The translations under genes and the position numbers were made by a program. Positions 14,524 through 47,381 of a stretch of DNA of 64,000 nucleotides are shown one piece after another. Origin of the DNA: Candidatus Methanoperedens sp. (GTDB taxonomy: Archaea > Halobacteriota > Methanosarcinia > Methanosarcinales > Methanoperedenaceae); the NCBI GenBank assembly GCA_027460615.1, contig JAPZAO010000078.1:1-64000 (forward strand), in the 5' to 3' direction. The notes below the pieces were generated by a model. It was not told the DNA's origin and made no database searches. It was given only the letters and a program-made list of their open reading frames with translations. Every line of letters begins with the position of its first letter. Position 1 is the stretch's first letter.

Positions 14524-14530
14524 AAAACAG

Positions 14531-18225: not shown

Positions 18226-18227
18226 AT

Positions 18228-19550: not shown

Positions 19551-19554
19551 CAAA

Positions 19555-19565
19555 TCATAATGTAG
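19555..19565 (+). repeat. Intergenic 11-mer shared with 22587-22597
   Basis: TCATAATGTAG occurs just after the aminotransferase stop and again just after the stop of the 637-aa gene at 22585, both in short intergenic gaps upstream of radical SAM genes. It may be a regulatory site or chance. Confidence 0.3.
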
Positions 19566-19580
19566 TAATTTGAAAGGAAT

Positions 19581-28016: not shown

Positions 28017-28742
28017 ATGTTGTTAAAAAATAAAAAAAATTTGAAAATCGTAGGCATAATCCATGCGAGAGGAGGTTCTAAAAGAATCCCTCTAAAAAAC
28101 ATTAAATTATTGGCAGGCAAGCCATTGATTGCACATATGATCGAATCAGCCCTTAAAAGCAGGAGATTGAACAAGGTTATAGTTTCGACAGACCATGATG
28201 AAATTGCAAGAATATCGAGAGAATATGGAGCTGAGGTTCCTTTCAAGAGACCAGTGGAACTGGCAGAAGACGTACCATCTGAACTTGTGAGTCAGCATGC
28301 GGTTGATTACCTGATAAAAAATGAAAATTATTATCCAGATATAGCTGTCACCATGCAGCCAACCACTCCTTTTTGCAGTCCTGAGGATATCGATGCATGT
28401 ATCGACAAGCTGATAGAAACTGATGCAGATTCTGTCATAACGGTCAGAGAGGTCAGAGAAAGACCGGAATGGATGTATAGGCTTGAAGGCGACAGGACTG
28501 TATCCTTAACAGGTATTTTGATACAGGGGGAAATTGGGGTTACACAGAGCCTGCAAAAACTGTACACGCCCAACGGAGCGGTATATGCCACGAAAATGAG
28601 GGTATTGAAGGAGCAAAACTTAATAATCGGCAGGGATAACAGGGCTGTAGTTATGCCTCCTGAGAGATCGATCGATATTGATGAGCCGATAGATTTTGTA
28701 CTGGCTGAAATTATGGCTAAAGAGCTTGGTTATGGTCTATAA
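28017..28742 (+). CDS. neuA: CMP-nonulosonate cytidylyltransferase (NeuA-like)
   Basis: A 241-residue enzyme that would activate a nonulosonic acid with CTP. GIIHARGGSKRIPLKNIKLLAGKPLI is the NeuA-type CTP-binding loop and MQPTTPF carries conserved contacts. No C-terminal esterase domain is present. The ATG at 28017 adds eight Lys-rich residues. TTG 28041 would give the more usual start MKIVGIIHARGG, so the true start is open. It overlaps the Gfo/Idh gene by 11 nt. NeuB, NeuC and the rest of the pathway lie 5-10 kb downstream. Confidence 0.9.
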   Translation: MLLKNKKNLKIVGIIHARGGSKRIPLKNIKLLAGKPLIAHMIESALKSRRLNKVIVSTDHDEIARISREYGAEVPFKRPVELAEDVPSELVSQHAVDYLIKNENYYPDIAVTMQPTTPFCSPEDIDACIDKLIETDADSVITVREVRERPEWMYRLEGDRTVSLTGILIQGEIGVTQSLQKLYTPNGAVYATKMRVLKEQNLIIGRDNRAVVMPPERSIDIDEPIDFVLAEIMAKELGYGL

Positions 28743-29751
28743 AGTGGGGATAATAGGCTGCGGTCAGATTGCCAGCATTTTTGAGGAAGATGCATGGAGG
28801 GAGCATCCCTGCACGCATGCGGGAGCATATGATGCAGTAAAAAGGACAAGGATCGTTGCAGCCGCGGACATAAGTGAAGAGAGACTGGACAGGTTCTCAA
28901 AGAGATGGGGGGGTAAAGTTTATACTGATTATAAAGAGATGCTGGAGAATGAAGACTTGGACATAGTAAGCGTCACCGCAAATACGCCGTATCATTCTGA
29001 GATGGTAATCAAAGCTGCAAAATCAGGTGTTAAGGCTATTTTCTGCGAGAAACCAATCGCTACCTGCATAGCTGAAGCTGATGAAATGATTCAGGCATGC
29101 GATGAACAAGGTGTGAAGCTGATAATCAACCACACCAGGCGATGGCATCCATTTTATCAGAAAGCAAAAGAGCTTGTAAACAATGGAGAGATAGGGGAAC
29201 TGACATCCATAACAGGATATTTTACGTCCGGGTTATTAATAGTAGGAACCCATTTCTTTGATACATTAAGATTCATAGCAGGGGATGCGGGATGGGTCAT
29301 TGGCAGCATTGAAAGGAACCAATCTGGCGATCCCAGCGGAAGCGGCTTAATAGGGTTCAAAAGCGGGATTGCGGGTTCGGTATTCGGGAGCAGCCAGAAG
29401 CAATACCTCATTTTCGAGATGGATATACAGGGAACACAGGGCAGGATATGTATAAAAGACAATGGAACAACTTTTAAACTTTGGACTACAAATAAAGAAA
29501 AGAAACATATAGATTTCAATGTACCAGGTGAACTTGTGCCAAGAAAAATATCCATAGAAAAAAAGAACAGCATGATAGCAGCAGTATCGGATGTAGTGGC
29601 TTCCATAGAAAATGACAGAGATGGGCTTTGTTCAGGAAGGGATGGAAAAGCAGCGCTTGAGCTGGCTTTAGCTTTTCATGAATCCGACCGGATGGGGGAA
29701 AAAGTGGAACTTCCACTTCAGGATAAGATATTGAGAATAGTATCAAGGTGA
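28732..29751 (+). CDS. Gfo/Idh/MocA oxidoreductase (second copy)
   Basis: A 339-residue oxidoreductase starting at ATG 28732 (MVYKVGIIGCGQIASIF). The upstream in-frame extension lies within neuA and is discarded. The EKP motif (FCEKPIAT), HTRRWHP and the beta-sheet domain parallel the protein at 17230. Both are followed by a DegT aminotransferase with a Cys-rich insert. It likely oxidises a hydroxyl before amination. The substrate is unknown. Confidence 0.88.
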   Translation: MVYKVGIIGCGQIASIFEEDAWREHPCTHAGAYDAVKRTRIVAAADISEERLDRFSKRWGGKVYTDYKEMLENEDLDIVSVTANTPYHSEMVIKAAKSGVKAIFCEKPIATCIAEADEMIQACDEQGVKLIINHTRRWHPFYQKAKELVNNGEIGELTSITGYFTSGLLIVGTHFFDTLRFIAGDAGWVIGSIERNQSGDPSGSGLIGFKSGIAGSVFGSSQKQYLIFEMDIQGTQGRICIKDNGTTFKLWTTNKEKKHIDFNVPGELVPRKISIEKKNSMIAAVSDVVASIENDRDGLCSGRDGKAALELALAFHESDRMGEKVELPLQDKILRIVSR

Positions 29752-29755
29752 TTAT

Positions 29756-31042
29756 ATGAGCGAAAAACTTGCAATTCTTGGCGGCGAGCCTGTACGCAAA
29801 AAGCCATTCCCACCATACCCTGTGATAGGAAAGGAAGAGATTGATGCTGTCAATGAAGTTTTGAAGAGCGGTAATCTATCCAGTTTTGCAGCCAGCGCGG
29901 GACCAAAGTTCCTTGGCGGGAGGAAAATTCGTGAATTTGAGGAAAACTTTGCAAAGTATCATAGTCTGGAATATGCGATCGCAGTGAACTCTGCCACCGC
30001 AGGACTTCATGTGGCTCTTGCAGCTTCGGGTATCGGCCCGGGGGATGAGGTTATTGTTCCCCCATATACTTTTACTGCGACAGCAACAAGCGTTTTGATG
30101 CACAATGCAATTCCAGTTTTTGCGGATGTAGACCCGAGAACATATTGTATAGACCCTGAGAGAATAGAGGAGGCAATAAACCCTTCCACAAAAGCAATCA
30201 TTCCAGTGCATCTTCTGGGGCATCCGGCTGAGATGGATGCGATTATGAAATTGGCGAATGAACATGATTTGACAGTCATAGAGGACTGTGCGCAAGCTCC
30301 TGGAGCAAAATATAAAGGAAAGCTCGTGGGAACGATAGGTGACGCAGGAGTATTCAGTTTCCAGGAAACCAAGAACATGATGACTGGAGAGGGGGGGATG
30401 ATTATTACAAAGGATGAAGAGCTTGCAGAAAGATGCAGGATGATCCGGAATCATGGAGAAGCGATAATCGAAGGCAAGAAGAGGTCATACATATCCAATA
30501 TCGTGGGATGGAATTACAGGATGACTGAAATGGAGGCAGCGATTGGCAATGAACAACTTAAGAAGCTAGACAGATTCAATGAAATCCGAATAAAAAACTC
30601 AAAATTTTTGACTAAAAATCTCTCAAAGATAGAAGGATTTAATGTGCCTTATGAAGCTCCGTCTATTCTTCATGTATATCATGTTTATGGAATGATATAT
30701 GAAGAAGAAAAAACGGGTATTCCAAGAAAAGCAATTGTTGAAGCACTGAATGCAGAAGGCATACCGTTCGGTACAGGCTACCCGCATCCTCTCTATGAAA
30801 ACCCGGTCTTCAAGGAAAAGATTGCATATGGGGATCATGGCTGTCCATTTACATGCCAGTTTTATAAAGGCAACGTGAGGTATGAGAGCGGATTATGCTC
30901 GGTTGCAGAGAGTTTATGTTACAAGAAAGCATTGTGGTTTTTTGGAGCGCGCCCTCCGGCTGCACAGATTGACATGCAGGATGTAGTTGATGCTTTTATT
31001 AAGATAGAAGAAAACATTGATGTACTGCGTGAATTAAAATAG
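29756..31042 (+). CDS. DegT-family aminotransferase with Cys-rich insert (second copy)
   Basis: A 428-residue PLP enzyme opening LAILGGEPVR. The PLP lysine is K206 (FQETKNMMTGEGG) and EDCAQAPGA is conserved. The C-terminal insert repeats the pattern of the 18228 protein: CPFTC (C363, C367), YKGN and GLC (C381), with an extra C388. It starts 4 nt after the Gfo/Idh stop. This duplicated oxidoreductase-aminotransferase module implies two related amino sugars or cyclitols, or two positions on one. Confidence 0.88.
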   Translation: MSEKLAILGGEPVRKKPFPPYPVIGKEEIDAVNEVLKSGNLSSFAASAGPKFLGGRKIREFEENFAKYHSLEYAIAVNSATAGLHVALAASGIGPGDEVIVPPYTFTATATSVLMHNAIPVFADVDPRTYCIDPERIEEAINPSTKAIIPVHLLGHPAEMDAIMKLANEHDLTVIEDCAQAPGAKYKGKLVGTIGDAGVFSFQETKNMMTGEGGMIITKDEELAERCRMIRNHGEAIIEGKKRSYISNIVGWNYRMTEMEAAIGNEQLKKLDRFNEIRIKNSKFLTKNLSKIEGFNVPYEAPSILHVYHVYGMIYEEEKTGIPRKAIVEALNAEGIPFGTGYPHPLYENPVFKEKIAYGDHGCPFTCQFYKGNVRYESGLCSVAESLCYKKALWFFGARPPAAQIDMQDVVDAFIKIEENIDVLRELK

Positions 31043-31052
31043 AGAGATTATT

Positions 31053-32108
31053 ATGAATTATATAAAAACTTCATGGAAAAAAGAGAAAAAGACAGATATA
31101 TCTATCGAAGTATTAAACCATATAGCTGCTAGAGGTTCGTTTGTTGTTATTGGGAGCAAAAGACTTTATAGGGATTTTAATGATGATGAGAATATATCGG
31201 AGACCGAAATAACTCCAAATCAGAGTTTACCTGAGAAGATTAACAATAAAATAAGGGAAGTTAACCTCAAATCCTGGATGGAAAACCTTGCAGACAATAT
31301 GGATGTCATCAAGTCGAATAAAGATATATCGCATATTCCAAAACAGAATGGTAAAGATGTCATAATAGTAGGCGGGGGTCCAAGTTTCAAAGAAAAAGGA
31401 CATATTGAAATTTTGAAACATCTTAAGGGGAAGACTATTATTTCAACAGATAAAATGTTGATTCCATTATTGAAATCCGGCATTACTCCCGACTTTGTTC
31501 TGAGCGTGGATGGACACAGACAATTAATAGAGACATTTTATGAAAGTGAACTGTTTGATGCGAAACTTTCTACTATTGGAATAATGGCAATTATGGTCGC
31601 ACCAAAGGTGGTTCAGAGATTTAAAGGGGAGAAAATTTTCTTTACACCAATGATCGATGATGTGGATCAACCTGTTTCACTCAGCATGGCACTAAGTCAT
31701 ATAACCAAAAAATCCATTTTATCTACTGGCGGTAATACGGGCATTACTTGCATAAATCTTGCGTATTATCTAGGTTTTAAAAATATAATATTGACAGGCA
31801 TGGATTTAGGTTACACTATGGAAACACCAATTGAAAAATCTGCATATTATCCCGTAGTAAAAGAAGTTGATCCAACAATAACACCTGAAAGATACAAGGA
31901 AACATATGTTATAGAAGGATACAACCCGGATTTCAAGATTAATTATTATACTGATGTGACATGGAAATCCCATATTGATAATCTTGTGCAGCAGTCAATA
32001 CAAATGTCTAAAGATGGGGTAAATATTATCAATGCCACAGAAGGAGGGGCGCTTCATGGCGGAGCGATCAAATCTATGAAATTGGAAGAAGCTATACATT
32101 ATGAATAA
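31053..32108 (+). CDS. Maf-type / DUF115 glycosyltransferase-like protein
   Basis: A 351-residue protein with the DUF115 (MAF_flag10) core: VIIVGGGPSFKEKG (about 105-118), IISTDKMLIPLLKSGITPDFVLSVDGH and NIILTGMDLGYT. Bacterial Maf proteins move pseudaminic or legionaminic acid from CMP donors onto flagellin Ser/Thr. The archaeal relative MptE instead makes a pterin pyrophosphate. Because neuA, neuB and neuC surround it, a nonulosonate transfer role is favoured. It overlaps the next gene by 8 nt. No membrane segment is present. Confidence 0.75.
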   Translation: MNYIKTSWKKEKKTDISIEVLNHIAARGSFVVIGSKRLYRDFNDDENISETEITPNQSLPEKINNKIREVNLKSWMENLADNMDVIKSNKDISHIPKQNGKDVIIVGGGPSFKEKGHIEILKHLKGKTIISTDKMLIPLLKSGITPDFVLSVDGHRQLIETFYESELFDAKLSTIGIMAIMVAPKVVQRFKGEKIFFTPMIDDVDQPVSLSMALSHITKKSILSTGGNTGITCINLAYYLGFKNIILTGMDLGYTMETPIEKSAYYPVVKEVDPTITPERYKETYVIEGYNPDFKINYYTDVTWKSHIDNLVQQSIQMSKDGVNIINATEGGALHGGAIKSMKLEEAIHYE

Positions 32109-33525
32109 ATTAAAAGTATTACTTATAAATCCTCCAATTAAACCCAAAGAACCTCCATATAATATACCTCTTGGTTTGATAAGTATAGCGGCAGTAATCA
32201 ATTCAGATGGTCATGATGTTGCTATTTTTGATAATAATGCGTATAAATTGAAACATGAAGAAGTAATAGGACAAATCAATGATACAATATGGGATATCAT
32301 AGGTATTGGGAATCTTGTCACCACATATAGGTGGCAGAAAAGAATGTTCACTCTTTTGAGAAATGAGTTCCCCAACACCATTCTGCTTGCAGGCGGAGGA
32401 CTTGCGACCAGCCTGCAGTACGACCTGATGCAATGGGTTCCGGAAATTGATATTCTTTCTATCGGAGAAGGGGAACGAACGATCCATCAGATATTAGAGA
32501 ATTTTGAGGATAAGAATTGGGGAAATGTCCGAGGAATCTATTATAGAGAAAATGAAAAAATACATTCTACTCCCCCTCAACAATTATTATCAGAAGAGGA
32601 ACTCAGCAATCTGCCTTTTCCCATGTATGAACTGTTACCACTCGAAGAAGTGTATTTCAAACATAGCGGTATACCTCTATCACCTGAAGCGATGGTTTCT
32701 AAACGCAGATTATCGATTGAATCTTCGAGAGGATGTCCTTTTTCATGCAGCTTTTGTATTGATTTGCCCACAGGTACGCCTCGAAATTTATCACACAAAA
32801 GAAAACTAAGATATTACAATCCAAGGCGAACGGTAGAACTCATAAAATATTTGCGATTGAAATATGCAATAGATTTTATTACATTTAGTGATGAGAATTT
32901 CACAGTAAATAAAAAATATGTTTTGGAATTCTGCGATTTGATGGAAAAGGGAGGATTAACAGATCTTGAACCGCCATTGCATTTCGGAACAACAGCTCAT
33001 GTCAATACTTTAGATAGAGAAATTCTGGACAAATTGAAGAATGCGGGATGCAGTTGTCTTGATATAGGGGCTGAATCGATGAATGCTGATATACTATCAA
33101 AAGATATAATAAAAAATTCAACACCGTTAAAAAATGAGTGGGCATTTAATGAATGTCTTAAAGCCGGAATATACCCCATAACAAACTTCATAATAGGATT
33201 ACCAAATGAGAATATGCAGTCAATTTATGATACTACAAAATTTCTAGTTGATAACGATATAGAATGCGGTCCCTTTTTTGTTACTCCCTATCCCAGAACG
33301 GGACTTTTTGAGAGATTCAGAGAACGCATCATTAAAGATTTTGTTTCCATTGAGAAATTCGTTATCAAATGCGAGGATGATGTTAGCCGGGATTTTGTCA
33401 TCAATTTAACAAAATACAATGATGCTGAACTCTTAGGAATAAGGCAGATGATCATTAATCATGATTTAGCGCAGATTATTAAATTTGCATCTCAAAAAGG
33501 AGAAAAGGTTGTTGAGAAGCAATAA
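32101..33525 (+). CDS. Radical SAM protein with B12-binding-like N-domain (second)
   Basis: A 474-residue paralogue of the 22633 protein. It shares the LLINPPIKP start, LAGGGLATS and IGEGE, again with no DxHxxG (DNNAYK). The cluster motif is C212-x3-C216-x2-C219. Late residues (FFVTPYPRTGLFERF) match the family's barrel end. The gene overlaps the Maf gene by 8 nt. The reaction is unknown. Co-location with the nonulosonate genes suggests it acts on that sugar, its acceptor or the lipid. Confidence 0.83.
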   Translation: MNKLKVLLINPPIKPKEPPYNIPLGLISIAAVINSDGHDVAIFDNNAYKLKHEEVIGQINDTIWDIIGIGNLVTTYRWQKRMFTLLRNEFPNTILLAGGGLATSLQYDLMQWVPEIDILSIGEGERTIHQILENFEDKNWGNVRGIYYRENEKIHSTPPQQLLSEEELSNLPFPMYELLPLEEVYFKHSGIPLSPEAMVSKRRLSIESSRGCPFSCSFCIDLPTGTPRNLSHKRKLRYYNPRRTVELIKYLRLKYAIDFITFSDENFTVNKKYVLEFCDLMEKGGLTDLEPPLHFGTTAHVNTLDREILDKLKNAGCSCLDIGAESMNADILSKDIIKNSTPLKNEWAFNECLKAGIYPITNFIIGLPNENMQSIYDTTKFLVDNDIECGPFFVTPYPRTGLFERFRERIIKDFVSIEKFVIKCEDDVSRDFVINLTKYNDAELLGIRQMIINHDLAQIIKFASQKGEKVVEKQ

Positions 33526-33532
33526 ACAAATC

Positions 33533-34585
33533 ATGCAAAAAAATATTAAAATACAGGCGAGAAATATCGGAGTTAATGAACCAGTATTTGTAATCGCAGA
33601 AGCTGGGGTAAATCATAACGGCAGTGTTGTTCTTGCAAAAAAACTGATAGATGCTGCCGCTTCTGCAGGGGCAGATGCCGTGAAATTCCAGACATTTATA
33701 GCTGAAGAAGTAGTTAGCATCAATGCACCGAAAGCAGAATATCAAAAACTGACCACGGATGTATCGGAATCACAGTTTGATATGATTAAAAAACTGGAGT
33801 TATCGCAAGAAGATCATCAGATATTAATCGAATATGCAGGACATAAGAATATCACATTCATATCAACACCCTTCGATGAAAGGAGCGTAGATATACTATT
33901 GGATATTGGAGTCCCATTGATAAAAATAGGTTCTGGCGAGATTACAAATCATCCTTTTTTAAAATATATAGCAAAAAAAAGCATACCAATTATCCTCTCA
34001 ACAGGCATGTCAACCCTGGAAGAGGTCGCGGAGGCAGTAATCATACTAAAAGAAGCCGGATGCAAGGATTTAATTTTGCTTCATTGCACATCAAATTATC
34101 CTGCAAAAGTGGAAGACTGCAACCTGCGAGCTATGAAGACCATGGCAGACTCATTCAATCTACTTGTTGGATATTCTGACCATACGCCTGGTATTTTTGT
34201 ATCTATTGCTGCCGTTGCTGTGGGTGCATGTGTGATTGAGAAACATTTCACGCTTGATAAAAACCTTTCAGGTCCAGATCATAAGGCCTCTCTTGAACCA
34301 AATGAGTTAAAAGAGATGGTTTATGGTATAAGAGTGGTTGAGAAAGCACTTGGTTCAGCAATAAAAGCGCCTGTACAGTCTGAACTTGAAGTAAGGGATG
34401 TTGCGAGGAGGAGCATCGTGGCTAAGGTAAATATCCCAGAAGGCGCTGTAATTACAGAAGATATGCTTGCTTTTAAAAGACCTGGAGTCGGAATAGCACC
34501 AAAGCATGAAAATCTTATTGTTGGAAAAATTGCTAAACAAAATATCCATAAAGATGAAATAATTAAATATGAAAATATTAAATAA
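33533..34585 (+). CDS. neuB: N-acetylneuraminate synthase family (NeuB/LegI)
   Basis: A 350-residue full-length NeuB. The PEP-condensing barrel shows VIAEAGVNHNGS, AVKFQTF, IGSGEI, LHCTSNYP and YSDHTPG. A C-terminal SAF domain (about 285-350) includes RRSIVAKVNIPEGA and KRPGVGI, which closes the active site of the dimer partner. It would join PEP with a 6-deoxy-diacetamido-mannose or ManNAc. An upstream ATG at 33485 would overlap the radical SAM gene by 41 nt and adds Lys/Arg-rich residues unlike the family, so 33533 is preferred. Confidence 0.93.
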   Translation: MQKNIKIQARNIGVNEPVFVIAEAGVNHNGSVVLAKKLIDAAASAGADAVKFQTFIAEEVVSINAPKAEYQKLTTDVSESQFDMIKKLELSQEDHQILIEYAGHKNITFISTPFDERSVDILLDIGVPLIKIGSGEITNHPFLKYIAKKSIPIILSTGMSTLEEVAEAVIILKEAGCKDLILLHCTSNYPAKVEDCNLRAMKTMADSFNLLVGYSDHTPGIFVSIAAVAVGACVIEKHFTLDKNLSGPDHKASLEPNELKEMVYGIRVVEKALGSAIKAPVQSELEVRDVARRSIVAKVNIPEGAVITEDMLAFKRPGVGIAPKHENLIVGKIAKQNIHKDEIIKYENIK

Positions 34586-37914: not shown

Positions 37915-38964
37915 ATGATATCAAATAAAGAAATCAGCGAACAGATTAAAGGCAAAAAAATTTTAGTAATAGGTGGTACAGGTTCTATAGGCAGTGAGAT
38001 AGTTCGTCTGTTACTGCAATATGAACCTGAAGTTGTTCGAATATTGAGCAACGATGAAGCCTGCCTATTCGAATTACAGCAAGAACTGAAAGGAAACATG
38101 AATGTGAGATTTCTTTTAGGGGATATTCGAGACATAGAGCGAATGAAAATTGCAATGGAAAATATAGACTTAGTATTCCATGCCGCTGCGCTCAAGCACG
38201 TACCGCTTTGCGAATATAATCCAATGGAAGCAATTAATACCAATGTCATTGGTACGGATAATGTTATCAAAGCAGCGATATACAATAAAGTGGACAAATG
38301 TATTTTTATAAGCACAGACAAGGCAGTTAATCCAACAAGCGTAATGGGCGCAACCAAAATGCTGGCTGAAAGGCTAGTAATACTTGCCAACAGTCACCTG
38401 AGCAGTATAACAAAATTTTCGGTCGTAAGATTCGGGAATGTACTGGATTCAAGAGGCTCTATAATACCGTTAATAAGAAAACAAATAATATCCGACGGCC
38501 GCGTAACAATCACTGACCCTAATATGACCAGATTCATTATGTCGATACCCCAGGCTGTCAATCTTGTTTTCAAGGCCGCTGCTCTTTCCAATGGCGGTGA
38601 AATCTTTGTCTTTAAGATGCCAGCTGTAAGAATAATGGATCTGATTGAAGTGCTGATTGAAGAACTGGCCCCGGAATATGGCATTGCGCCGGAATCGATA
38701 GAACGGGTTTTCATTGGGCCAAGAGCAAGAGAGAAAATCCACGAAGAATTAATGATAGAAGATGAAATAAAATGGATGAAGGAAAAGAAGGATATGTTCA
38801 TAATAACATATCCCATAGAACTTCATGGCATTGTCATTGCAGGAAACAATGGAATGAATATGATAGCTCCCGTTAAAGGTTATTCTTCCGAAAGTACAGT
38901 ATTATTGAGCAAAGAAGAAATAAAAAACCTCCTCTCAAAAGAGGGTGTCAATCATAGTCATTGA
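37915..38964 (+). CDS. UDP-GlcNAc 4,6-dehydratase (FlaA1/CapD family, retaining type)
   Basis: A 349-residue short-form CapD/FlaA1 protein, without the membrane domain of PglF/WbpM. NAD loop GGTGSIG (20-26), FHAAALKHVPL and STDKAV (T124-D125-K126) are present. In place of the usual Tyr-x3-Lys it has S132-x-M134-x3-K138. The Ser-Met-Lys triad is that of WbpM/PglF, which retain C5 configuration and lead to bacillosamine or legionaminate. PseB, leading to pseudaminate, keeps Tyr. The end overlaps the radical SAM/SPASM gene by 20 nt. Confidence 0.9.
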   Translation: MISNKEISEQIKGKKILVIGGTGSIGSEIVRLLLQYEPEVVRILSNDEACLFELQQELKGNMNVRFLLGDIRDIERMKIAMENIDLVFHAAALKHVPLCEYNPMEAINTNVIGTDNVIKAAIYNKVDKCIFISTDKAVNPTSVMGATKMLAERLVILANSHLSSITKFSVVRFGNVLDSRGSIIPLIRKQIISDGRVTITDPNMTRFIMSIPQAVNLVFKAAALSNGGEIFVFKMPAVRIMDLIEVLIEELAPEYGIAPESIERVFIGPRAREKIHEELMIEDEIKWMKEKKDMFIITYPIELHGIVIAGNNGMNMIAPVKGYSSESTVLLSKEEIKNLLSKEGVNHSH

Positions 38965-39928
38965 AGTCAACGCCAATTTCCACACCATCGGTGGCAAAAG
39001 CGTTCTGAGCAGGAGTGACCCAATTTTCCATGAATACCGGATGAAATGGGATGAATGGCCCAGGAATTTCTATACAGGCCAATTTCCGCTTCACCTTGAC
39101 ATCGAAGCATCCAGTGTGTGCAACCTGAGATGCGAGTTTTGCGAAACTAACTATGAAAAAGTAGGAACAAAGTACGGCTATATGGAATTCGACGTTTTCA
39201 AAAAGATCATTGACGAAGGCGCTGAATACGGTCTTTACGCCATAAAGCTGAACTCGGGCGCACGGGGTGAACCGCTGCTCCATAAGAAGATAGTTCAGAT
39301 GGTGGAGTATGCAAAAAAGAAAGGCATAATAGATGTCTATATGAATACGAACGCCGTGCTCCTGACACGGGAACTTGGCAGAAAACTGATAGATGCCGGG
39401 CTGGACAGGATATCAATATCATTTGAAGGAACCAAACCTCAAATCTATGAAAAATATAGAATTGGCGCGAAATTCGATAAGGTGCGCAGGAATATTCTTG
39501 AGTTTATAGACTTGAGGAACAGTCTGAATTCAGAGACTAAGATAAGAATCCAGACCGTGGCTACGCCTGATATTCTGCCTGATATAAAGGAATACGGGGA
39601 ATACTGGGGCAAGCTTGTGGATGAGGTCGCATTTATAGATTTCAAGGATTACGGAGCCAGGAAAAAAGACTTGATATCCGATTGGGCATGCCCCTATATC
39701 TGGCAGAGGATGATGGTCACCTGGGACGGTACTATTTCAGTATGCGGATTTGATTACACTGACGACCATAAGCTCAGAAATGCAAAAATTGACACTATCC
39801 GCGCTGCATGGAAAGGAGACGAAATGGAACGCATACGCAAACTTCATAGAGAAGGAAATGCTCATAAGATAGCCATATGCAACGGTTGTCCGTTCAGGAC
39901 CACTGAGATATTAAAAAGGTTGGAGTAA
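38945..39928 (+). CDS. Radical SAM/SPASM protein (second)
   Basis: A 327-residue paralogue of the 19581 protein. The cluster motif is C59-x3-C63-x2-C66, preceded by HLDIEASS as in its paralogue. The C-terminal SPASM-like part has CPYIWQRMMVTWDG, SVCGFDY and ICNGCPF. The start is taken at GTG 38945, which overlaps the dehydratase by 20 nt. A later ATG (39041) would keep the whole core too. It precedes a cytidylyltransferase by 2 nt. In both places the SPASM gene lies next to a block boundary. Confidence 0.85.
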   Translation: MSIIVIEVNANFHTIGGKSVLSRSDPIFHEYRMKWDEWPRNFYTGQFPLHLDIEASSVCNLRCEFCETNYEKVGTKYGYMEFDVFKKIIDEGAEYGLYAIKLNSGARGEPLLHKKIVQMVEYAKKKGIIDVYMNTNAVLLTRELGRKLIDAGLDRISISFEGTKPQIYEKYRIGAKFDKVRRNILEFIDLRNSLNSETKIRIQTVATPDILPDIKEYGEYWGKLVDEVAFIDFKDYGARKKDLISDWACPYIWQRMMVTWDGTISVCGFDYTDDHKLRNAKIDTIRAAWKGDEMERIRKLHREGNAHKIAICNGCPFRTTEILKRLE

Positions 39929-39930
39929 TC

Positions 39931-40683
39931 ATGATTGCAGCACTATTACTGGGCAGGGAAGGGAGCCAGGGATTTCCAGGAAAGAACCTGTATCCTGTTA
40001 TGGGAAGGCCGCTTATGGAATACCCGCTGCTTGCGGCAAAGTATGCGAAAACGGTTAATGCAACGTATGTTTCCACAGATTCGCCCAAGATCAAAGAGAT
40101 AGGAAGAAAAAATGGGGCACGAATAATAGACCGCCCCCCGGAACTGTGTACACCCCAGGCGCTGGGAGAGGATGCATTCGCGCATGGTTACAGATATATA
40201 AAGGACGAAGGGAACGATGTGGAATTTATGGTATTGCTATTCTGCAATGCGGTCACAGTCCTTTCTGAGACCATTGACGAAGGCATAAAAGTTCTTCGGG
40301 AAAATCCGGAGCTTGATTCCGCAGTTACAGTTTCCCGTTACAATATGTGGAGCCCTCTCAGGGCAAGAAAGATCGGTGATGACGGATGTCTTCATCCATT
40401 CGTCCCATTTGAAACATTCGGTGATCCCAGAACGCTGAACTGTGACCGGGATTCACAGGGCGATGTATGGTTCGCAGATATGGGTGTATCAATCGTGAGA
40501 CCACACTGCCTGGAACATATGGAAGATGGTCTGCTGCCGCAAAAATGGATGGGGCAGAAAATCCACCCCCTGAAGCAGTGGGGCGGCCTTGATGTGGATT
40601 ACGAATGGCAGGTGCCTTCGGTTGAATTCTGGCTCATGAAACACGGTTTCACAAACGATAAGATTCCTTACGAGGATATGTAG
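39931..40683 (+). CDS. Third cytidylyltransferase (NeuA/KdsB-like)
   Basis: A 250-residue enzyme with the loop LLLGREGSQGFPGKNLYPV, a variant of R-x-G-S-K-x-x-x-x-KN in NeuA, and an LFCNAVT stretch where NeuA has QPTSP. It should make a CMP-sugar distinct from those of the two other cytidylyltransferases. It is followed at 0 nt by an SDR rather than a Gfo/Idh gene and begins block C. Confidence 0.83.
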   Translation: MIAALLLGREGSQGFPGKNLYPVMGRPLMEYPLLAAKYAKTVNATYVSTDSPKIKEIGRKNGARIIDRPPELCTPQALGEDAFAHGYRYIKDEGNDVEFMVLLFCNAVTVLSETIDEGIKVLRENPELDSAVTVSRYNMWSPLRARKIGDDGCLHPFVPFETFGDPRTLNCDRDSQGDVWFADMGVSIVRPHCLEHMEDGLLPQKWMGQKIHPLKQWGGLDVDYEWQVPSVEFWLMKHGFTNDKIPYEDM

Positions 40684-41439
40684 ATGTTTGAAAGCATTAA
40701 GGGGAAAAAAGTCCTGATCACCGGCGCAAGTTCAGGCATAGGCGCAGAAACTGCAAAATTGTTCGCAAGTTATGGTGCACATGTTGGAATACATTATAAT
40801 AGAAATGAAGAAAATGCGATAAAACTTCAAAAAGACATTGAGGATACAGGAGGAAGCGCAGATGTCCTTGCAGGTGATTTGCTTGAAGAATCAACAAGAT
40901 CAGACCTGATCCAGTCTTTTATTGATGCTTTCGGTAGTATTGATGTACTGATCAACAATGCAGGCGGAGTTATTGGAAACATGCCGTTCTTAGAGCTGGA
41001 TGAGATGTCTTGGAGAGATACCATGGCGCTGAATGCAACTGCTCCATTTTTTCTATCAAGGGATGCCTTTCTTTTCATGAAAGATAACGGCGGCGGAAGG
41101 ATTATCAATATCAGCTCGATTTCAGCAAAATATGGCGGTTCGATGAATACGATGCACTACGGGGCTGCCAAGGCGGCACTGGAAACTCTGACAAAAGGAT
41201 TTGCAAAAGCAGGTGCTCCCCACAATATCCTGGTGAACTGTATTCGGGGTGGAGTAATAGATACACCGCTTCATTCCAGGATAGAACGAAACAGCCCAGC
41301 CATGGAAAAACGCATTTCTCTTATCCCGTTAAAAAGAATGGGCAAACCTGTGGACATTGCAAGGCTGGCATTATTCCTGGCCTCCGAAGCAGGCGATTTT
41401 ATCACGGGGGAAGTTTTTACTGTAGCTGGAGGGGATTAA
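40684..41439 (+). CDS. Short-chain dehydrogenase/reductase
   Basis: A 251-residue classical SDR, the FabG type. It has TGASSGIG (13-20), INNAGG, the catalytic Ser in NISSISAK and Tyr-x3-Lys in MHYGAAK, ending FTVAGGD. It would oxidise or reduce a hydroxyl or keto group with NAD(P). Its position right after a cytidylyltransferase suggests a carbohydrate or cyclitol substrate rather than fatty acid synthesis. Confidence 0.9.
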   Translation: MFESIKGKKVLITGASSGIGAETAKLFASYGAHVGIHYNRNEENAIKLQKDIEDTGGSADVLAGDLLEESTRSDLIQSFIDAFGSIDVLINNAGGVIGNMPFLELDEMSWRDTMALNATAPFFLSRDAFLFMKDNGGGRIINISSISAKYGGSMNTMHYGAAKAALETLTKGFAKAGAPHNILVNCIRGGVIDTPLHSRIERNSPAMEKRISLIPLKRMGKPVDIARLALFLASEAGDFITGEVFTVAGGD

Positions 41440-41445
41440 CCCCGG

Positions 41446-42258
41446 ATGCAAATATCTGTGAATAATTTCTCCAAATACGTTTATTTAAGATCGCTTCAAG
41501 AGGCGGCCAGAGAGCAGAATCTGACTGGATTGGCACGCAAGCTTGAACATATCGTTCCAGATATCTCTGAGCAGTATTCCACGTTCAAACTCGACAATGA
41601 ATATCTCAGGACAAAGGTGAGGAATGTGCATGCATTCCAGATGTCGCTCGTTGCAGAGGTCGCGGAAGAATTTAAAAATATGGTGATAGTTGATATCGGG
41701 GACTCATCAGGCACACACCTCCAATATCTATCCGGTCTCTATGAAAAGAATATAAAATGCTTAAGCGTGAACCTTGACCCGAAAGCTGTGGAAAAGATAC
41801 GGAATAAGGGGCTTGAGGCAGTGCTTGCAAGGGCTGAGAATCTTTCAGATTATGATATTAACCCTGATATCTTCCTCTGTTTTGAGACGCTCGAACATCT
41901 GATGGATCCATTCCATTTCCTGCATGAACTGTCATCAAAGACGAGTGCAAAATATATGATAATCACAGTTCCATATGTAAGGAAAAGCCGCATCGGTCTA
42001 CACCATATTCGGCAGGGAAGGGAGGATGGTGTAAATGCCGAGAATACTCATATTTTCGAGCTCGACCCGGAGGATTGGAAACTGCTCATGAGACATTCGG
42101 GATGGGAGATCGTCAGGGAAAAGATATATCTCCAGTATCCAATATGGAGTATATTATATTTAACAAAATCCATGTGGAGAAAGTATGATTTCGAAGGATT
42201 CTATGGAGTAATTCTAAAAAGAGACGATAATTGGTCAAAGCGATATCTCGATTGGTAG
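41446..42258 (+). CDS. SAM-dependent methyltransferase (class I)
   Basis: A 270-residue protein with the SAM motif VIVDIGDSSGTHLQYLSG (about 84-101), the acidic VNLDPKA after strand 2 and FLCFETLEHLMDP (post-motif strand 4). It probably methylates a hydroxyl or carboxyl of the glycan precursor. The N-terminal 80 residues are helical and unassigned. The acceptor is unknown. Confidence 0.82.
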   Translation: MQISVNNFSKYVYLRSLQEAAREQNLTGLARKLEHIVPDISEQYSTFKLDNEYLRTKVRNVHAFQMSLVAEVAEEFKNMVIVDIGDSSGTHLQYLSGLYEKNIKCLSVNLDPKAVEKIRNKGLEAVLARAENLSDYDINPDIFLCFETLEHLMDPFHFLHELSSKTSAKYMIITVPYVRKSRIGLHHIRQGREDGVNAENTHIFELDPEDWKLLMRHSGWEIVREKIYLQYPIWSILYLTKSMWRKYDFEGFYGVILKRDDNWSKRYLDW

Positions 42259-42268
42259 TTCGATAAAT

Positions 42269-43198
42269 ATGAAAATCCTGATTTCAAGCGCATCCTTTGG
42301 AAAAATAAACCGCGACCCTATCACTATGCTTGAGAAGGCGGGTTTTGAAACTGTAAGCAATACACGGGGAAAAAAGCTTGAATTCGATGAATTCGCCGAA
42401 CTGATAAAGGACGCCGCAGGTCTCATCGCTGGCACAGAAAAAATAACAGGAAAGCTCCTTGAAAAAGCGCCGAAATTAAAAGTAATATCAAGATATGGCG
42501 TCGGCATGGATAATATCGATATGGAAGCAGCCAAAAAATTGGGAATCATTGTACGCAGCACCCCTGAAGCTCCCTCGCAGGCAGTGGCAGAACTTGCACT
42601 TGCCCTGATGCTTAATCTTTCAAGACGTGTGGCAGAGGCGGACAGGAACCTCCGCAAAGACAACTGGAACCAGTTGATGGGAAGGCTTCTTACCGGCAGG
42701 ACCCTGGGAATCATAGGGCTCGGGAGGATAGGGAAGAAACTGGTGCGGCTCGTCCAGCCTTTCAAGATGGATCTGCGCGCTTATGAGCCATATCCGGATG
42801 TGGATTTTATCCGTGAGAACAACATCGTACTGGGCTCACTGCAGGACGTACTATCAGACAGCGATATCATATCCCTGCACCTGCCACTCTCGGATGCCAC
42901 GTTTCACATGATAGGAAAAAAGGAATTATCACTTATGAAGAAGGATGCAATCATCATCAATACATCGCGCGGCGGCTTGATAGACGAAGAAGCTCTTATC
43001 GGGGCATTAAGGAACGGAACTATTGCCGGGGCGGGCATTGATACATTTGAAACCGAGCCCTACAAGGGAGGACTTACTGACCTTGACAATGTGGTGCTGA
43101 CATGTCACATGGGTTCATCTGCCATAGAAACGAGGAAACAGATGGAGCTTGAGACCGTGAACAACCTGATAAGTGCCCTGAAGGAGGCTGGCATATGA
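42269..43198 (+). CDS. D-2-hydroxyacid dehydrogenase (SerA-like)
   Basis: A 309-residue enzyme of the phosphoglycerate dehydrogenase family: NAD fold GLGRIGKKLV, catalytic Arg in NTSRGGLIDEEAL, Glu in FETEP and His in TCHMGSS. It lacks the C-terminal ACT domain of biosynthetic SerA. In a glycan operon it more likely makes or reduces a sugar acid or a C3 side-chain such as glycerate. It overlaps the next epimerase by 4 nt. Confidence 0.88.
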   Translation: MKILISSASFGKINRDPITMLEKAGFETVSNTRGKKLEFDEFAELIKDAAGLIAGTEKITGKLLEKAPKLKVISRYGVGMDNIDMEAAKKLGIIVRSTPEAPSQAVAELALALMLNLSRRVAEADRNLRKDNWNQLMGRLLTGRTLGIIGLGRIGKKLVRLVQPFKMDLRAYEPYPDVDFIRENNIVLGSLQDVLSDSDIISLHLPLSDATFHMIGKKELSLMKKDAIIINTSRGGLIDEEALIGALRNGTIAGAGIDTFETEPYKGGLTDLDNVVLTCHMGSSAIETRKQMELETVNNLISALKEAGI

Positions 43199-44097
43199 AA
43201 GCAATAGTATTCGGCGGCTCGGGATTTCTTGGAAGTCATGTTGCAGATTCACTAACCGCAGCTGGATACGATGTGAAGATATTTGACCTCAGGGAGTCGC
43301 CATATCTGCGGGAAGGGCAGGAGATGATCACCGGCAATATACTCGACAGGGAAGCCGTAAGGAAGGCTGTCACCGGATGCGACATTGTATATTCATTTGC
43401 CGGCATAGCCGATATCGAAAAAGCCAACGAGAAGCCGGTTGAAACAGTGGAGATAAATATACTCGGGACCACGATTATCCTGGATGCATGCAGGGCATGC
43501 GACATAAAAAGATTTGTTTTCGCAAGCAGCATGTATGTGTACAGCAAAATGGGCGCTTTCTACAGGAGCAGCAAACAGGCATGTGAGCTCATTATCGAGA
43601 ACTTCAATGAATCATACGGTCTCCCATATACCATACTCAGGTACGGTTCGCTCTATGGACCGCGCTCGGACGAAAGCAACTGGATATACAGGATACTGAA
43701 ACAGGCGGTGGTGGAAGGGAAGATCACGCGCCATGGGGATGGGGAAGAACTCAGGGAATATATCCATGTGGAGGATGCCGCACGGTACAGCGTGGAGATA
43801 CTGGCGGATGATTTCAAGAATGAGTACGTCATCCTCACAGGCAACCAGTTCATGAAAATCAAGGACCTGATGCTGATGATCCGGGAGATGATGGGGGATA
43901 CCATCGACCTCGAATTCCTGCCTGAGGATTCGGGTCTGCATTACGAGATTACCCCTTATTCCTTCAGACCGAAGATAGCCAAGAAATATGTGGGCAGATA
44001 CCATCTTGATATAGGGCAGGGCATACTCGCGATGCTGGGGGATGTATATCAAAATAACTTCCCATACAAGAAACAGAACGGTCTGTATTTCAAGTGA
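43195..44097 (+). CDS. NAD-dependent epimerase/dehydratase
   Basis: A 300-residue extended SDR: GGSGFLG, the strand FASSMYVYS, then YRSSK as the Tyr-Lys pair. The segment between the Ser strand and the Tyr is about a dozen residues shorter than in UDP-galactose epimerases, so the substrate may differ. It overlaps both neighbours by 4 nt. The product is not assignable. Confidence 0.85.
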   Translation: MKAIVFGGSGFLGSHVADSLTAAGYDVKIFDLRESPYLREGQEMITGNILDREAVRKAVTGCDIVYSFAGIADIEKANEKPVETVEINILGTTIILDACRACDIKRFVFASSMYVYSKMGAFYRSSKQACELIIENFNESYGLPYTILRYGSLYGPRSDESNWIYRILKQAVVEGKITRHGDGEELREYIHVEDAARYSVEILADDFKNEYVILTGNQFMKIKDLMLMIREMMGDTIDLEFLPEDSGLHYEITPYSFRPKIAKKYVGRYHLDIGQGILAMLGDVYQNNFPYKKQNGLYFK

Positions 44098-46070
44098 ATA
44101 TGAACATTCTGTATGTTTTTGATGAGACTTCGGAAATAGAGCGGCTGGAGGCATCTCTTGACAGGACAACGAAAAAGCTGGTGCTATGCCCAATCACGAC
44201 TGATCAGGACTTTATTTCAGCCGTCGTTGACAGATTGGGCAAAGAGAAACTTGAAGTGGAAGTGGTGAATTTCACCGAACTCTTCAACAAGACCTCGTTT
44301 TCCATAAGAGAAGAATACCTGCGTTTCATTTCTGAATTTCCGAATAAGATGACAGTCTCAGGCAGGAATCTTAAAGAATATTTCAGAATCTCCTCCGGGA
44401 ACTTCTCAGCATGGTGGTTCTCGCTGCTTGCAGAAAAAAATACCCTTAAAACAGGCTCCTACAGCCAGCTTTCAAGGACCCTGAGCATACTGGACATCCA
44501 GGAAAAACATTCATGCGGCATCATTCTTTGCGATATTGCGGATAATAAGCTATACAGGACGCTTCGCGACAATGCGACGAAGAACAGAGGCTTTCACTGC
44601 CGCTCCTTACGAAAAAATGTCTCCGGGAGCCCGGAGCTATTGCAGGCGCTCGTGGGATCATCCGCGTTTCTTGCGCGCCAGTTCATCAAGATGCTTGCCA
44701 TTAAATGGCGGATGCATGGGCTTCATTCAAGAAAAGAGATATTGAAGAAGAGCAAGTTCCTCCTTGTCACGTATTTTCCACTCATTGACAGGAAACAATT
44801 GAAAGACAAAAAATTCATCAACCGGTATTATCAGCCCATCCAGCGCGCGCTTGAAAAAAAATACCCGGGTGAATTCATCTGGCTCGCAATGACCGTGAAC
44901 CTTGAAGGATTTGACTGGAACAGCAGCGCAAAACTGGGAAAAAGTATCAATGAAGGGGGCTATCCATTGTATCTATGCGAGGAATGGGTCACCATTCACG
45001 ACATGTGCTTTGCTTTTCTCGAATATGCCCGTATATTGTTAAGATATTTGCGGATATCTTCATCTATTTCGCGGTCGTTCGTTTATCCCGGGGATGTCAA
45101 TATCTGGACGATATTTGAAAAGGACTGGCATGAATCCTTCGCCGGGACTACCATGATAAATAGCATAGTCAATTACCATATGTTCAGAAGGCTGTTCGGT
45201 GAAATGGAGAAACAAACGACAGTCACTTATTTCTTCGAGAATCAGCCGTGGGAGAAGGCGCTCAACATTGCGGCATCCGAGAGAAAAATAAAAAATGTAA
45301 TTGGTATTCAGCATACGACTGTTCCCCTGCTTCTCCTGAATTATTTCAATCATGCTTCAGAGTTTAAGGACCAGGACTTCCTTCAAACAATTCCTGCACA
45401 TGTGGGATGCGTGGGACGAATACCCCGGGAACTGTTCATATCATCAGGATGGGACAGGGAAAAAGTCTTTGTGCTCGGTGCCATCCGGTTCCAGCAATTG
45501 AAGAAGCACATCGAGAAGGAGATCCCATGGGAAACCAGGGACAACATTGTAATCGTGGCTTTGTCCATAGAACTCATGGAATCGATGGAATTGCTTTCAT
45601 ATGTAATTCATGCTTTCAGTAATCAGACGAAGTTCAAGGTTCTAATCAAGGGACATCCCGCCCTCTCAGTCGGGACTATTCTTCATTCCATGTGCATGCA
45701 TCCCGATCCTGATATATTCACGATAGTTGACACACCTCTGCATGAGCACCTCCCAAAATGCAAGGTTATGATTGTAACTGGTTCCTCATCATCCCTGGAG
45801 AGCATCGCGTGCCAGTGCCCGATAATAATACCGAGACTGGTAAGCACGATAGATATGAATCCCCTGTCAGGCATAAGCGATATACCTGTCTTTGCCGACA
45901 GTCCGCAGGAGCTTAGAAGAATAACGGAGGAAATAATAGAACGAAGCGATTCGCCGCTAAATTATGAAAAATGCAGGGATTTTATCATACGTTACTGCGA
46001 TTTCATTCCGGATGACGAATTCCGGAAGAGAATAGAGGATTTAAATAAAGAGAATATACATGAGAAATGA
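44094..46070 (+). CDS. Large GT-B-like surface carbohydrate protein
   Basis: A 658-residue protein, the largest unknown here. The N-terminal part has FSAWWFSLLAEKNTLKTG. The C-terminal part has KNVIGIQHTT, VGCVGRIPRELF, VFVLGAIRFQQL and LIKGHPAL, then VTGSSSSLESIACQCP at the expected donor site. These elements recall KpsS/WaaA-like GT-B transferases and a family labelled 'surface carbohydrate biosynthesis' in Leptospira (from memory, low certainty). It is a likely transferase for the block C CMP-sugar. Confidence 0.6.
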   Translation: MNMNILYVFDETSEIERLEASLDRTTKKLVLCPITTDQDFISAVVDRLGKEKLEVEVVNFTELFNKTSFSIREEYLRFISEFPNKMTVSGRNLKEYFRISSGNFSAWWFSLLAEKNTLKTGSYSQLSRTLSILDIQEKHSCGIILCDIADNKLYRTLRDNATKNRGFHCRSLRKNVSGSPELLQALVGSSAFLARQFIKMLAIKWRMHGLHSRKEILKKSKFLLVTYFPLIDRKQLKDKKFINRYYQPIQRALEKKYPGEFIWLAMTVNLEGFDWNSSAKLGKSINEGGYPLYLCEEWVTIHDMCFAFLEYARILLRYLRISSSISRSFVYPGDVNIWTIFEKDWHESFAGTTMINSIVNYHMFRRLFGEMEKQTTVTYFFENQPWEKALNIAASERKIKNVIGIQHTTVPLLLLNYFNHASEFKDQDFLQTIPAHVGCVGRIPRELFISSGWDREKVFVLGAIRFQQLKKHIEKEIPWETRDNIVIVALSIELMESMELLSYVIHAFSNQTKFKVLIKGHPALSVGTILHSMCMHPDPDIFTIVDTPLHEHLPKCKVMIVTGSSSSLESIACQCPIIIPRLVSTIDMNPLSGISDIPVFADSPQELRRITEEIIERSDSPLNYEKCRDFIIRYCDFIPDDEFRKRIEDLNKENIHEK

Positions 46071-46719
46071 CATGGCGCTCAGATCGATAATCCTTGATTT
46101 TGACGGTGTAATCATAGAATCCGTGGACATAAAGACCCGTGCTTTCAGGGAGCTTTTCCGGGAATATCCTGAGCATGTGGATGAGATTGCGCAGTACCAC
46201 CTGAAAAACGGCGGCATGTCGCGCTTCAAGAAGTTTTCATATATATACGAGAACATTTTGAAGCAGCCGCTTGACGAGGTCAAAATGAAGGAACTGGGCG
46301 AGGCTTTTTCAAAGATAGTCAGGTCAGAGATGATCTCGTGCCCTTTTGTGGTTGGGGCGGAGGATTTCATGGAAAAATATTCGGAACGCACCATGCTTTT
46401 TATTGCCTCAGGAACGCCTGAGGATGAACTCAGGGAGATAGTACTTGAGCGGGGTATTTCACGATTTTTTAGAGGCATCTTCGGCACGCCCAGGACGAAA
46501 TCTGATATCATCCTTGGAATACTGGAGGAATTCGATCTCGATAAGGAGGAGGTCTTTTTCGTGGGCGATTCGTTCAATGACTATGAAGGTGCAAGGATTG
46601 CGGGCGTCCCTTTTATCAGCCGCATCTCAGGACATGACCCCAGGATGAAAGGACTGGGGTTCGCCTCAGTCAGGGACCTTTCTGAACTGGATATCCTGCT
46701 GGAAGGATCGGGACTATGA
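46060..46719 (+). CDS. HAD-superfamily phosphatase
   Basis: A 219-residue HAD hydrolase. The nucleophile motif is D13-F-D15-G, motif II lies in IASGTPED, and motif IV is VGDSFNDYEGA. A helical cap follows motif I (subclass I). In ulosonate pathways a HAD enzyme removes the phosphate left by a phosphosugar-using synthase (KdsC and N-acylneuraminate-9-phosphatase). The start at 46060 has AAAGAG 8 nt upstream, and ATG 46072 is a possible alternative. It overlaps both neighbours. Confidence 0.87.
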   Translation: MRNDMALRSIILDFDGVIIESVDIKTRAFRELFREYPEHVDEIAQYHLKNGGMSRFKKFSYIYENILKQPLDEVKMKELGEAFSKIVRSEMISCPFVVGAEDFMEKYSERTMLFIASGTPEDELREIVLERGISRFFRGIFGTPRTKSDIILGILEEFDLDKEEVFFVGDSFNDYEGARIAGVPFISRISGHDPRMKGLGFASVRDLSELDILLEGSGL

Positions 46720-47381
46720 GCCGATATGTCCTGCTTTCATACACAATCGATGACCGCACACCGCTGTACGGCAACACCCCGGCGCCAATTGTTAGCAGTT
46801 ATAGCAGCATCTCCGAAGGGTCATCCTCAAATACATATATTATCAAAATTCATAATCATACCGGCACGCATGTGGATGCACCCGGGCATTTCATCGCGGG
46901 CGGGAGGACTATCTCGGAGTATGACCTGCGGGATCTCGTGTTCCACAATCCGGTGATGGTGGAATGTCCGGCCGGAGAGGATGAGAGGATCCCTCTGAAG
47001 GACGCATCATTTGGTAAAGAGAGTATCGATTGCCTGCTTGTGAGGACAGGTTTTGCCAGATACAGGCATGAAGAGATATACAGCACCCATAACCCCTGGT
47101 TTGCATCCGAAGACATCTCATGGCTCAGGAAGAATTATCCATCCATCAGGTGCCTCGGCGTTGACAGCCTCACGATATCGGGTTTCCAGAACCGGGATGA
47201 AGGAAGGAAGGCGCACAAGGCGGCTTTTATAGATATTATTGGAGCCGAACCTTTATTGCTCATAGAGGATATAAATCTCGCACCGATATCAGGTCAGAGA
47301 TTAAAGAAAATATTAGTCCTTCCCTTGATGATAAAGGGCATTGACAGTGCGCCGTGCAGTGTAATAGCCGAAGTGAAATAA
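46716..47381 (+). CDS. Cyclase-family (kynurenine formamidase-like) hydrolase
   Basis: A 221-residue metal hydrolase of the putative-cyclase family. The metal motif H48-TGTH52-VD54-A-P56-GH58 is intact. Members open amides or lactones (arylformamidase, isatin hydrolase). In a glycan operon it could deformylate an N-formyl sugar or open a lactone of an aldonic or ulosonic acid. This is an unusual partner for glycan genes. It overlaps the HAD gene by 4 nt. Confidence 0.85.
   Translation: MSRYVLLSYTIDDRTPLYGNTPAPIVSSYSSISEGSSSNTYIIKIHNHTGTHVDAPGHFIAGGRTISEYDLRDLVFHNPVMVECPAGEDERIPLKDASFGKESIDCLLVRTGFARYRHEEIYSTHNPWFASEDISWLRKNYPSIRCLGVDSLTISGFQNRDEGRKAHKAAFIDIIGAEPLLLIEDINLAPISGQRLKKILVLPLMIKGIDSAPCSVIAEVK

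Follow-up and report, generated by a model that had tools for sequence, protein, structure and literature searches.

A Nine-Gene Cassette of Candidatus Methanoperedens sp. as a Candidate Pathway to a CMP-Activated Acidic Sugar

The window analysed here is a stretch of 64,000 nucleotides (nt) from Candidatus Methanoperedens sp. (assembly GCA_027460615.1, contig JAPZAO010000078.1, positions 1 to 64,000; genome completeness 82%, contamination 5%). Between positions 39931 and 47381, an earlier note on this DNA, made from the letters alone, had described eight tightly packed open reading frames (ORFs) as a candidate for an undescribed cytidine monophosphate (CMP)-sugar pathway. All eight ORFs were found, with gaps of 0, 6, and 10 nt and overlaps of 4, 4, 11, and 4 nt, and the ORF check, Pfam, NCBIfam, and a fold model agreed with the packing and the families that the note had given. 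Pfam assigned seven of the eight ORFs with scores above the family cut-offs, and the 658-aa protein had no Pfam match.

The extent of the cassette was only partly as described. The eight genes belong to it, but a radical S-adenosylmethionine (SAM)/SPASM gene at 38945-39928 had been missed; it sits 2 nt upstream of the cytidylyltransferase gene and is a member of the cassette, which is therefore composed of nine genes (38945-47381). In addition, seven of the nine genes make up the set that recurs in other genomes, while the methyltransferase gene and the gene for the 658-aa protein are variable and do not belong to this widely conserved set.

All nine genes are located on the + strand. The first encodes a radical SAM/twitch (SPASM-like) enzyme (Pfam Radical_SAM 68.7 bits, SPASM 38.8 bits), a proposed BtrN-like sugar-alcohol dehydrogenase. 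It is followed by a CTP_transf_3 cytidylyltransferase at 39931-40683 (PF02348, 45.1 bits, cut-off 22.6), a proposed CMP-sugar(acid) synthetase; by a short-chain dehydrogenase/reductase (SDR) at 40684-41439 (adh_short_C2, 183 bits), the proposed reductase of the ketone that the radical SAM enzyme would form; and by a class I methyltransferase at 41446-42258 (Methyltransf_23, 35.7 bits), an accessory gene. Four further enzymes form what is called here the four-gene module: a D-2-hydroxyacid dehydrogenase resembling SerA and 2-ketoaldonate reductases at 42269-43198 (2-Hacid_dh_C, 194.7 bits), an extended-SDR "epimerase" with an NAD-type Asp31 at 43195-44097 (Epimerase, 154.8 bits), a HAD-IA phosphatase at 46060-46719 (HAD_2, 62.5 bits), and a cyclase-family (PF04199) metal hydrolase at 46716-47381 (Cyclase, 73.4 bits), the last being a proposed lactonase. 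Between the epimerase and HAD genes lies the gene for the 658-aa GT-B-fold surface-carbohydrate protein (44094-46070), a proposed CMP-sugar transferase.

A single scan covering 84,980 species genomes detected relatives of the cytidylyltransferase, with 56-77% identity, at 46 loci in archaea and many bacterial phyla. The genome names include Methanoperedenaceae, Methanolobus, Methanoregula, Elusimicrobia, NC10, Nitrospirae, Acidobacteria, Acidimicrobiia, Magnetococcales, Chloroflexi, Scalindua, and Geobacter, as well as Omnitrophota, SAR324, Riflebacteria, Rhodospirillaceae, Pelagibacteraceae, Spirochaetia, and others. The case that the note itself had named against its proposal, that the genes are never co-located elsewhere, did not hold, as these 46 cytidylyltransferase loci lie beside genes for the dehydrogenase, epimerase, HAD enzyme, cyclase, and SDR. 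Within phyla the family is sporadic: 2 of 295 genomes in the window's own phylum carry it, as do 8 of 246 Nitrospirota, and in the phyla of G306 (Spirochaetota), G302 (Geobacter), and G296 (Elusimicrobia) the counts are 2 of 198, 3 of 297, and 3 of 150, respectively. Two carriers are named strains, Methanolobus psychrotolerans YSF-03 and Pararhodospirillum oryzae NBRC 107573. Plasmid and phage records contained no cassette members, just remote NeuA-like or generic cyclase matches. A 115 kb IMG/VR contig carried cytidylyltransferase, radical SAM, and SDR genes (L079:7497-10717); this copy may be phage-borne, or the contig may be misassigned.

The scan loci and the loci fetched from phylum surveys gave 58 distinct loci, most of them from metagenome-assembled genomes, which were compared using profile hidden Markov models built from clusters. 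Within 12 kb of the cytidylyltransferase gene, the epimerase was found in 43 loci, the 2-hydroxyacid dehydrogenase in 42, the radical SAM enzyme in 41, the HAD enzyme in 31, the SDR in 23, a HisC-type aminotransferase in 22, and the cyclase in 18; these counts are lower bounds, since genes may lie beyond 12 kb, as in locus L003. The radical SAM gene frequently adjoins the cytidylyltransferase gene directly, and the 2-hydroxyacid dehydrogenase and epimerase genes are adjacent, in that order, in 22 loci. The gene set is conserved and co-located across phyla beyond chance. Methyltransferases of other types occur at other loci. In other species, genes near the cassette repeatedly encode B12-binding radical SAM proteins or zinc-finger-type methyltransferases (L005-L047), suggesting that the sugar has branched or C-methylated forms.

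The cassette is made up of two modules, the four-gene module and a radical SAM/cytidylyltransferase/SDR module. In genome G460, the dehydrogenase, epimerase, cyclase, and HAD genes make up a separate operon (L107:8078-11245), and the cytidylyltransferase, epimeraseX, radical SAM, and HisC genes lie on another contig (L069). In a close Methanoperedenaceae relative (L003/L108), the four module genes are contiguous about 9.5 kb downstream (L108:1471-4602). Because the module stands alone in the former and stays contiguous in the latter, its four enzymes appear to act together.

The co-occurrence of the two modules was also evident at the genome level. Among 246 Nitrospirota genomes, nine contained a cassette-type cyclase (238-335 bits), compared with 16 containing generic cyclases (96-116 bits). 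Of the eight genomes that carry the cytidylyltransferase, seven belong to the group of nine and none to the group of 16 (Fisher 2.9e-11, uncorrected for kinship). In the remaining two of the nine, which lack the cytidylyltransferase (G464 and G484), the cassette-type cyclase genes (L105:9887-10579 and L106:3684-4388) were accompanied by no other module genes, and one of them adjoins GHMP kinase and DegT aminotransferase genes.

A marked mutual exclusion was observed between the SDR and the HisC-type aminotransferase, which occurred together in none of the 58 loci (Fisher 2.7e-7). The exclusion was first seen in 48 loci and was still true in the loci fetched later. On the cytidylyltransferase tree, the SDR/HisC label changes about 12 times, with at least five changes forced by well supported branches; because of these repeated changes, the pattern represents more than two clades. 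Nor did the radical SAM enzyme share any of the 58 loci with a Gfo/Idh dehydrogenase, which was present in 6. When the enzymes were grouped as ketone makers and ketone users, both were present in 43 loci, a maker alone in 4, a user alone in 2, and neither in 9 (Fisher 3e-6). Such a pattern would be expected if either of two enzymes oxidised one hydroxyl and the resulting ketone were then either reduced or aminated, and this is probably what happens.

The radical SAM protein has the BtrN-type pattern, a CxxxCxxC motif (C59, C63, and C66) plus one auxiliary-cluster set of four Cys ligands (C249, C267, C312, and C315, with spacings of 18, 45, and 3), and all these cysteines are invariant in 23 relatives. 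The best PDB match of the family profile was BtrN (E 3e-26), about 40 bits over the next, with the four auxiliary cysteines aligned. With the AlphaFold2 model (mean predicted local distance difference test, pLDDT, 90.3), the top Foldseek match was again BtrN (E 1e-13), followed by BlsE (E 3e-12). BtrN converts an aminocyclitol alcohol into a ketone in a two-electron oxidation, and its auxiliary cluster is bound by four cysteines (PMC9012708). On the basis of sequence and model, the cassette enzyme is proposed to be a BtrN-like alcohol-to-ketone dehydrogenase.

The cytidylyltransferase is a member of the CTP_transf_3 (NeuA/KdsB/PseF) superfamily, as indicated by PF02348 and by its motifs. In a 43-row alignment, K18 and N19 of the N-terminal R-x-G-S-x-x-x-P-x-K-N loop and D221 and D223 of the C-terminal D-x-D were invariant. 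The profile matched only NeuA and KdsB structures, with NeuA enzymes as the nearest solved ones, and CMP activation by this enzyme is likely from its sequence. Two more specific identities were considered and rejected. The closest NCBIfam model, PseF (TIGR03584), gave 62.5 bits against a cut-off of 205.7, and the best KdsB model gave 35.3 bits against cut-offs of 193-255. At one locus, a single ORF (L029:7341-9248) encodes a cytidylyltransferase fused to a HisC-type aminotransferase.

In the four-gene module, the 2-hydroxyacid dehydrogenase conserves the catalytic residues R237, E266, and H283 and the glycine motif GxGxxG, and its profile matched 3-phosphoglycerate dehydrogenase (1e-72) and 2-ketogluconate reductase (5e-53) in the PDB. 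The epimerase family has an invariant S111/Y123/K127 triad. In the motif RYxNxYGP, present in structures 4zrm and 6dnt, the Asn is replaced by Ser in the cassette family, a change that is at most suggestive of another substrate. The HAD protein is of the capped IA type, with D13, D15, K147, D170, and D174 invariant. The cyclase contains the PF04199 metal motif HxGTHxDxPxH and the downstream His and Glu, with H47, T50, H51, D53, H57, H166, and E183 invariant or nearly so in 16 rows, together with extra invariant arginines. A lactone intermediate, as the earlier note had envisaged, is plausible, the metal-hydrolase motif of the cyclase being intact.

The 658-aa protein is related to TIGR04326 but scored below its cut-off (219.2 versus 250 bits). 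AlphaFold2 gave it a good model (pLDDT 85.5) with a GT-B-like fold, for which Foldseek returned GT-B proteins, the best matches being NeuC/WecB-type epimerases and TarL at TM-scores of 0.3-0.4 on the query.

Other blocks of the window also contain cytidylyltransferase genes. The two in-window NeuB genes (14468-15337 and 33485-34585) lie in blocks of their own, each with its own CTP_transf_3 gene (16476-17237 and 28017-28742, respectively). In the block at 16476-20675, CTP_transf_3 stands with Gfo/Idh oxidoreductase and DegT aminotransferase genes and with a further radical SAM/SPASM gene (19581-20675), an arrangement that recalls the oxidise-and-aminate logic proposed for the cassettes. The block at 28017-34585 contains CTP_transf_3 (PseF-like, 153 bits), Gfo/Idh, DegT, an MptE-like protein (PF01973), a B12-binding radical SAM protein, and NeuB. 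Directly downstream of the cassette, a true LegB gene (487 bits, cut-off 475; the match starts about 30 residues into the ORF) opens another block.

Taken as a whole, genes 38945-47381 are read, tentatively and at a little under even confidence, as one operon in which an acidic sugar is made by the four-gene module, activated with CMP, tailored by the radical SAM enzyme and the SDR, and transferred. The reactions, the order of steps, and the substrate given here are what we infer from the enzyme families. The epimerase-like dehydrogenase would oxidise C1 of a sugar phosphate to a lactone, which the cyclase-family enzyme would open to an aldonate phosphate. Oxidation of C2 by the 2-hydroxyacid dehydrogenase would then yield a 2-keto (ulosonic) acid, from which the HAD enzyme would remove the phosphate to leave the free ulosonate. 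In the manner of NeuA and KdsB, the cytidylyltransferase would couple CMP to the anomeric hydroxyl of the keto-acid. Before or after this step, the BtrN-like radical SAM enzyme would turn one hydroxyl into a ketone, and the SDR would reduce it back, probably inverting the stereochemistry; in sister cassettes, the ketone would be transaminated by the HisC-type enzyme. Finally, the methyltransferase would methylate the sugar, and the GT-B protein would transfer it to a surface glycan.

Several observations weigh against this pathway. Its weak point is the role of the epimerase within the four-gene module, since the solved structures nearest to the profile are UDP-glucose 4-epimerases, not a proven aldose dehydrogenase, and no uronate-dehydrogenase structure was found among the best PDB matches. 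Many of the 58 loci have no cyclase inside 10 kb, and 13 have neither the SDR nor the HisC-type enzyme. With correction for phylogeny, six supported pairs were obtained, none in the opposite sense, but the exclusions do not reach 0.05. The Foldseek search returned no close structural match for the 658-aa model and did not reveal the sugar donor. A final point concerns NeuB, a strong match to which was present in 51 of 56 cassette genomes, including all eight Nitrospirota carriers, compared with 86 of 246 (35%) background Nitrospirota.

This enrichment, which would also fit a nonulosonate derived from phosphoenolpyruvate (PEP), bears on the source of the keto-acid, which the earlier note had sought either in the upstream NeuB enzymes or in the hydroxyacid dehydrogenase. 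If NeuB were the source, the cytidylyltransferase would activate a NeuB-type nonulosonic acid (legionaminic acid, pseudaminic acid, or a relative); modification of this acid or its precursor would be the task of the other enzymes. Such a reading would also agree with PseF being the closest NCBIfam model and with the LegB and PtmE-like genes directly downstream of the cassette. However, no NeuB-family synthase was found within 38945-47381, nor any PEP-condensing synthase; both NeuB genes of the window are served by cytidylyltransferases of their own; and the PseF cut-off was far from reached. Moreover, five of the 56 cassette genomes, the isolate draft of P. oryzae (G304) and four metagenome-assembled genomes, have no strong NeuB match, and the enrichment may reflect only shared residence in glycan-rich genomes. 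The upstream NeuB enzymes are accordingly disfavoured as the source of the keto-acid, and a NeuB-type substrate is considered somewhat unlikely.

The separability of the modules, which are unlinked in G460 and about 9.5 kb apart in L003/L108, together with the 17 of 58 loci in which at most one of the four module genes lies inside 12 kb, could mean that the parts merely travel together. The four-gene module would then make another building block, such as a substituent resembling a hydroxy acid or an amino acid, and the CMP-sugar would come from an unrelated source such as Kdo (3-deoxy-D-manno-octulosonic acid). Against this stand the tight genome-level co-occurrence, even where the modules are unlinked, and the majority of loci, which hold at least two of the four genes inside 12 kb, so that mere co-travel appears distinctly unlikely. 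For the radical SAM enzyme, the second Foldseek rank of BlsE, a cytosylglucuronate decarboxylase acting on a cytosine-linked uronic acid, raises the alternative of a decarboxylase that shortens a CMP-linked sugar acid. This is regarded as very unlikely, given that BtrN came first in both searches (95 profile bits versus 43 for BlsE), that the auxiliary cysteines align, and that the partnership with the aminotransferase or SDR fits a ketone product, although BlsE also proceeds via a ketone. CMP-activated phosphonates are present in surface pathways (PMC6697681), and the dehydrogenase, aminotransferase, HAD, radical SAM, and cytidylyltransferase classes all occur in phosphonoglycan pathways. A CMP-phosphonate product was nevertheless rejected as extremely improbable: PEP mutase (TIGR02320) was over its cut-off in just five of 56 cassette genomes, none was found in the window's genome, and the cytidylyltransferase is of the NeuA/KdsB family.

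The general proposal of an undescribed CMP-sugar pathway is well supported: the co-location of its genes is strong, and the open-access papers searched on the gene combination, on TIGR04326, on radical SAM enzymes with cytidylyltransferases, and on hexulosonic acids contained no account of such a pathway. To our knowledge, the known CMP-sugars (Kdo and sialic, legionaminic, and pseudaminic acids) all start from a PEP-condensing synthase. A cassette that has none, present in archaea as well as in many phyla of bacteria, suggests that a further class of sugars is activated with CMP. It is possible, though rather doubtful, that the cassettes represent a widespread, modular route to CMP-ulosonic acids free of PEP condensation, in which a ketone made by a radical SAM enzyme is re-reduced or aminated. 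If so, the route would be a source of new keto-sugars in archaeal and bacterial surface glycans, and we know of no earlier radical SAM dehydrogenase in CMP-sugar biosynthesis. The cassette likewise suggests building blocks of surface glycans for which glycan analyses would not yet be searching, and the exchanges of SDR for aminotransferase and of radical SAM for Gfo/Idh enzyme offer a testable rule by which a hydroxyl or an amine on the finished sugar could be predicted. The two named strains make the cassette experimentally approachable.

Among known systems, the Kdo pathway (KdsA-KdsC-KdsB) resembles the cassette in that a HAD phosphatase and then a CTP_transf_3 enzyme lead to a CMP-activated 2-keto sugar acid. 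It differs in its PEP-condensing synthase, the place of which would be taken in the cassette by the 2-hydroxyacid dehydrogenase, the extended SDR, and the cyclase-family hydrolase; the cassette also has the radical SAM tailoring step and a HAD enzyme of the capped IA type. The legionaminic, pseudaminic, and sialic acid pathways (LegI/LegF, PseI/PseF, and NeuB/NeuA) share with the cassette the CMP-activating superfamily and the glycan islands, whereas the cassette lacks a NeuB-family synthase and has another set of enzymes, and its cytidylyltransferase falls far under the PseF cut-off. At the level of the sugar, the E. coli K3 capsule, which according to the title of a cited work (ref. 32 in PMC10433991) contains 4-deoxy-2-hexulosonic acid, indicates that hexulosonic acids occur in bacterial capsules.

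The BtrN step of butirosin, with its aminotransferase, is similar in its twitch radical SAM enzyme with four auxiliary cysteines and, in the HisC variants, in its aminotransferase partner. The cassette, unlike butirosin, stands in a surface-glycan context beside a cytidylyltransferase, and the ketone of the window's version would be reduced by the SDR rather than aminated. Kdo8N is formed by KdnB, an iron-type alcohol dehydrogenase, and KdnA, through an oxidise-then-aminate tailoring of a sugar acid bound for CMP activation. The cassettes differ from it in using a radical SAM or Gfo/Idh enzyme, often with an SDR in place of the aminotransferase.

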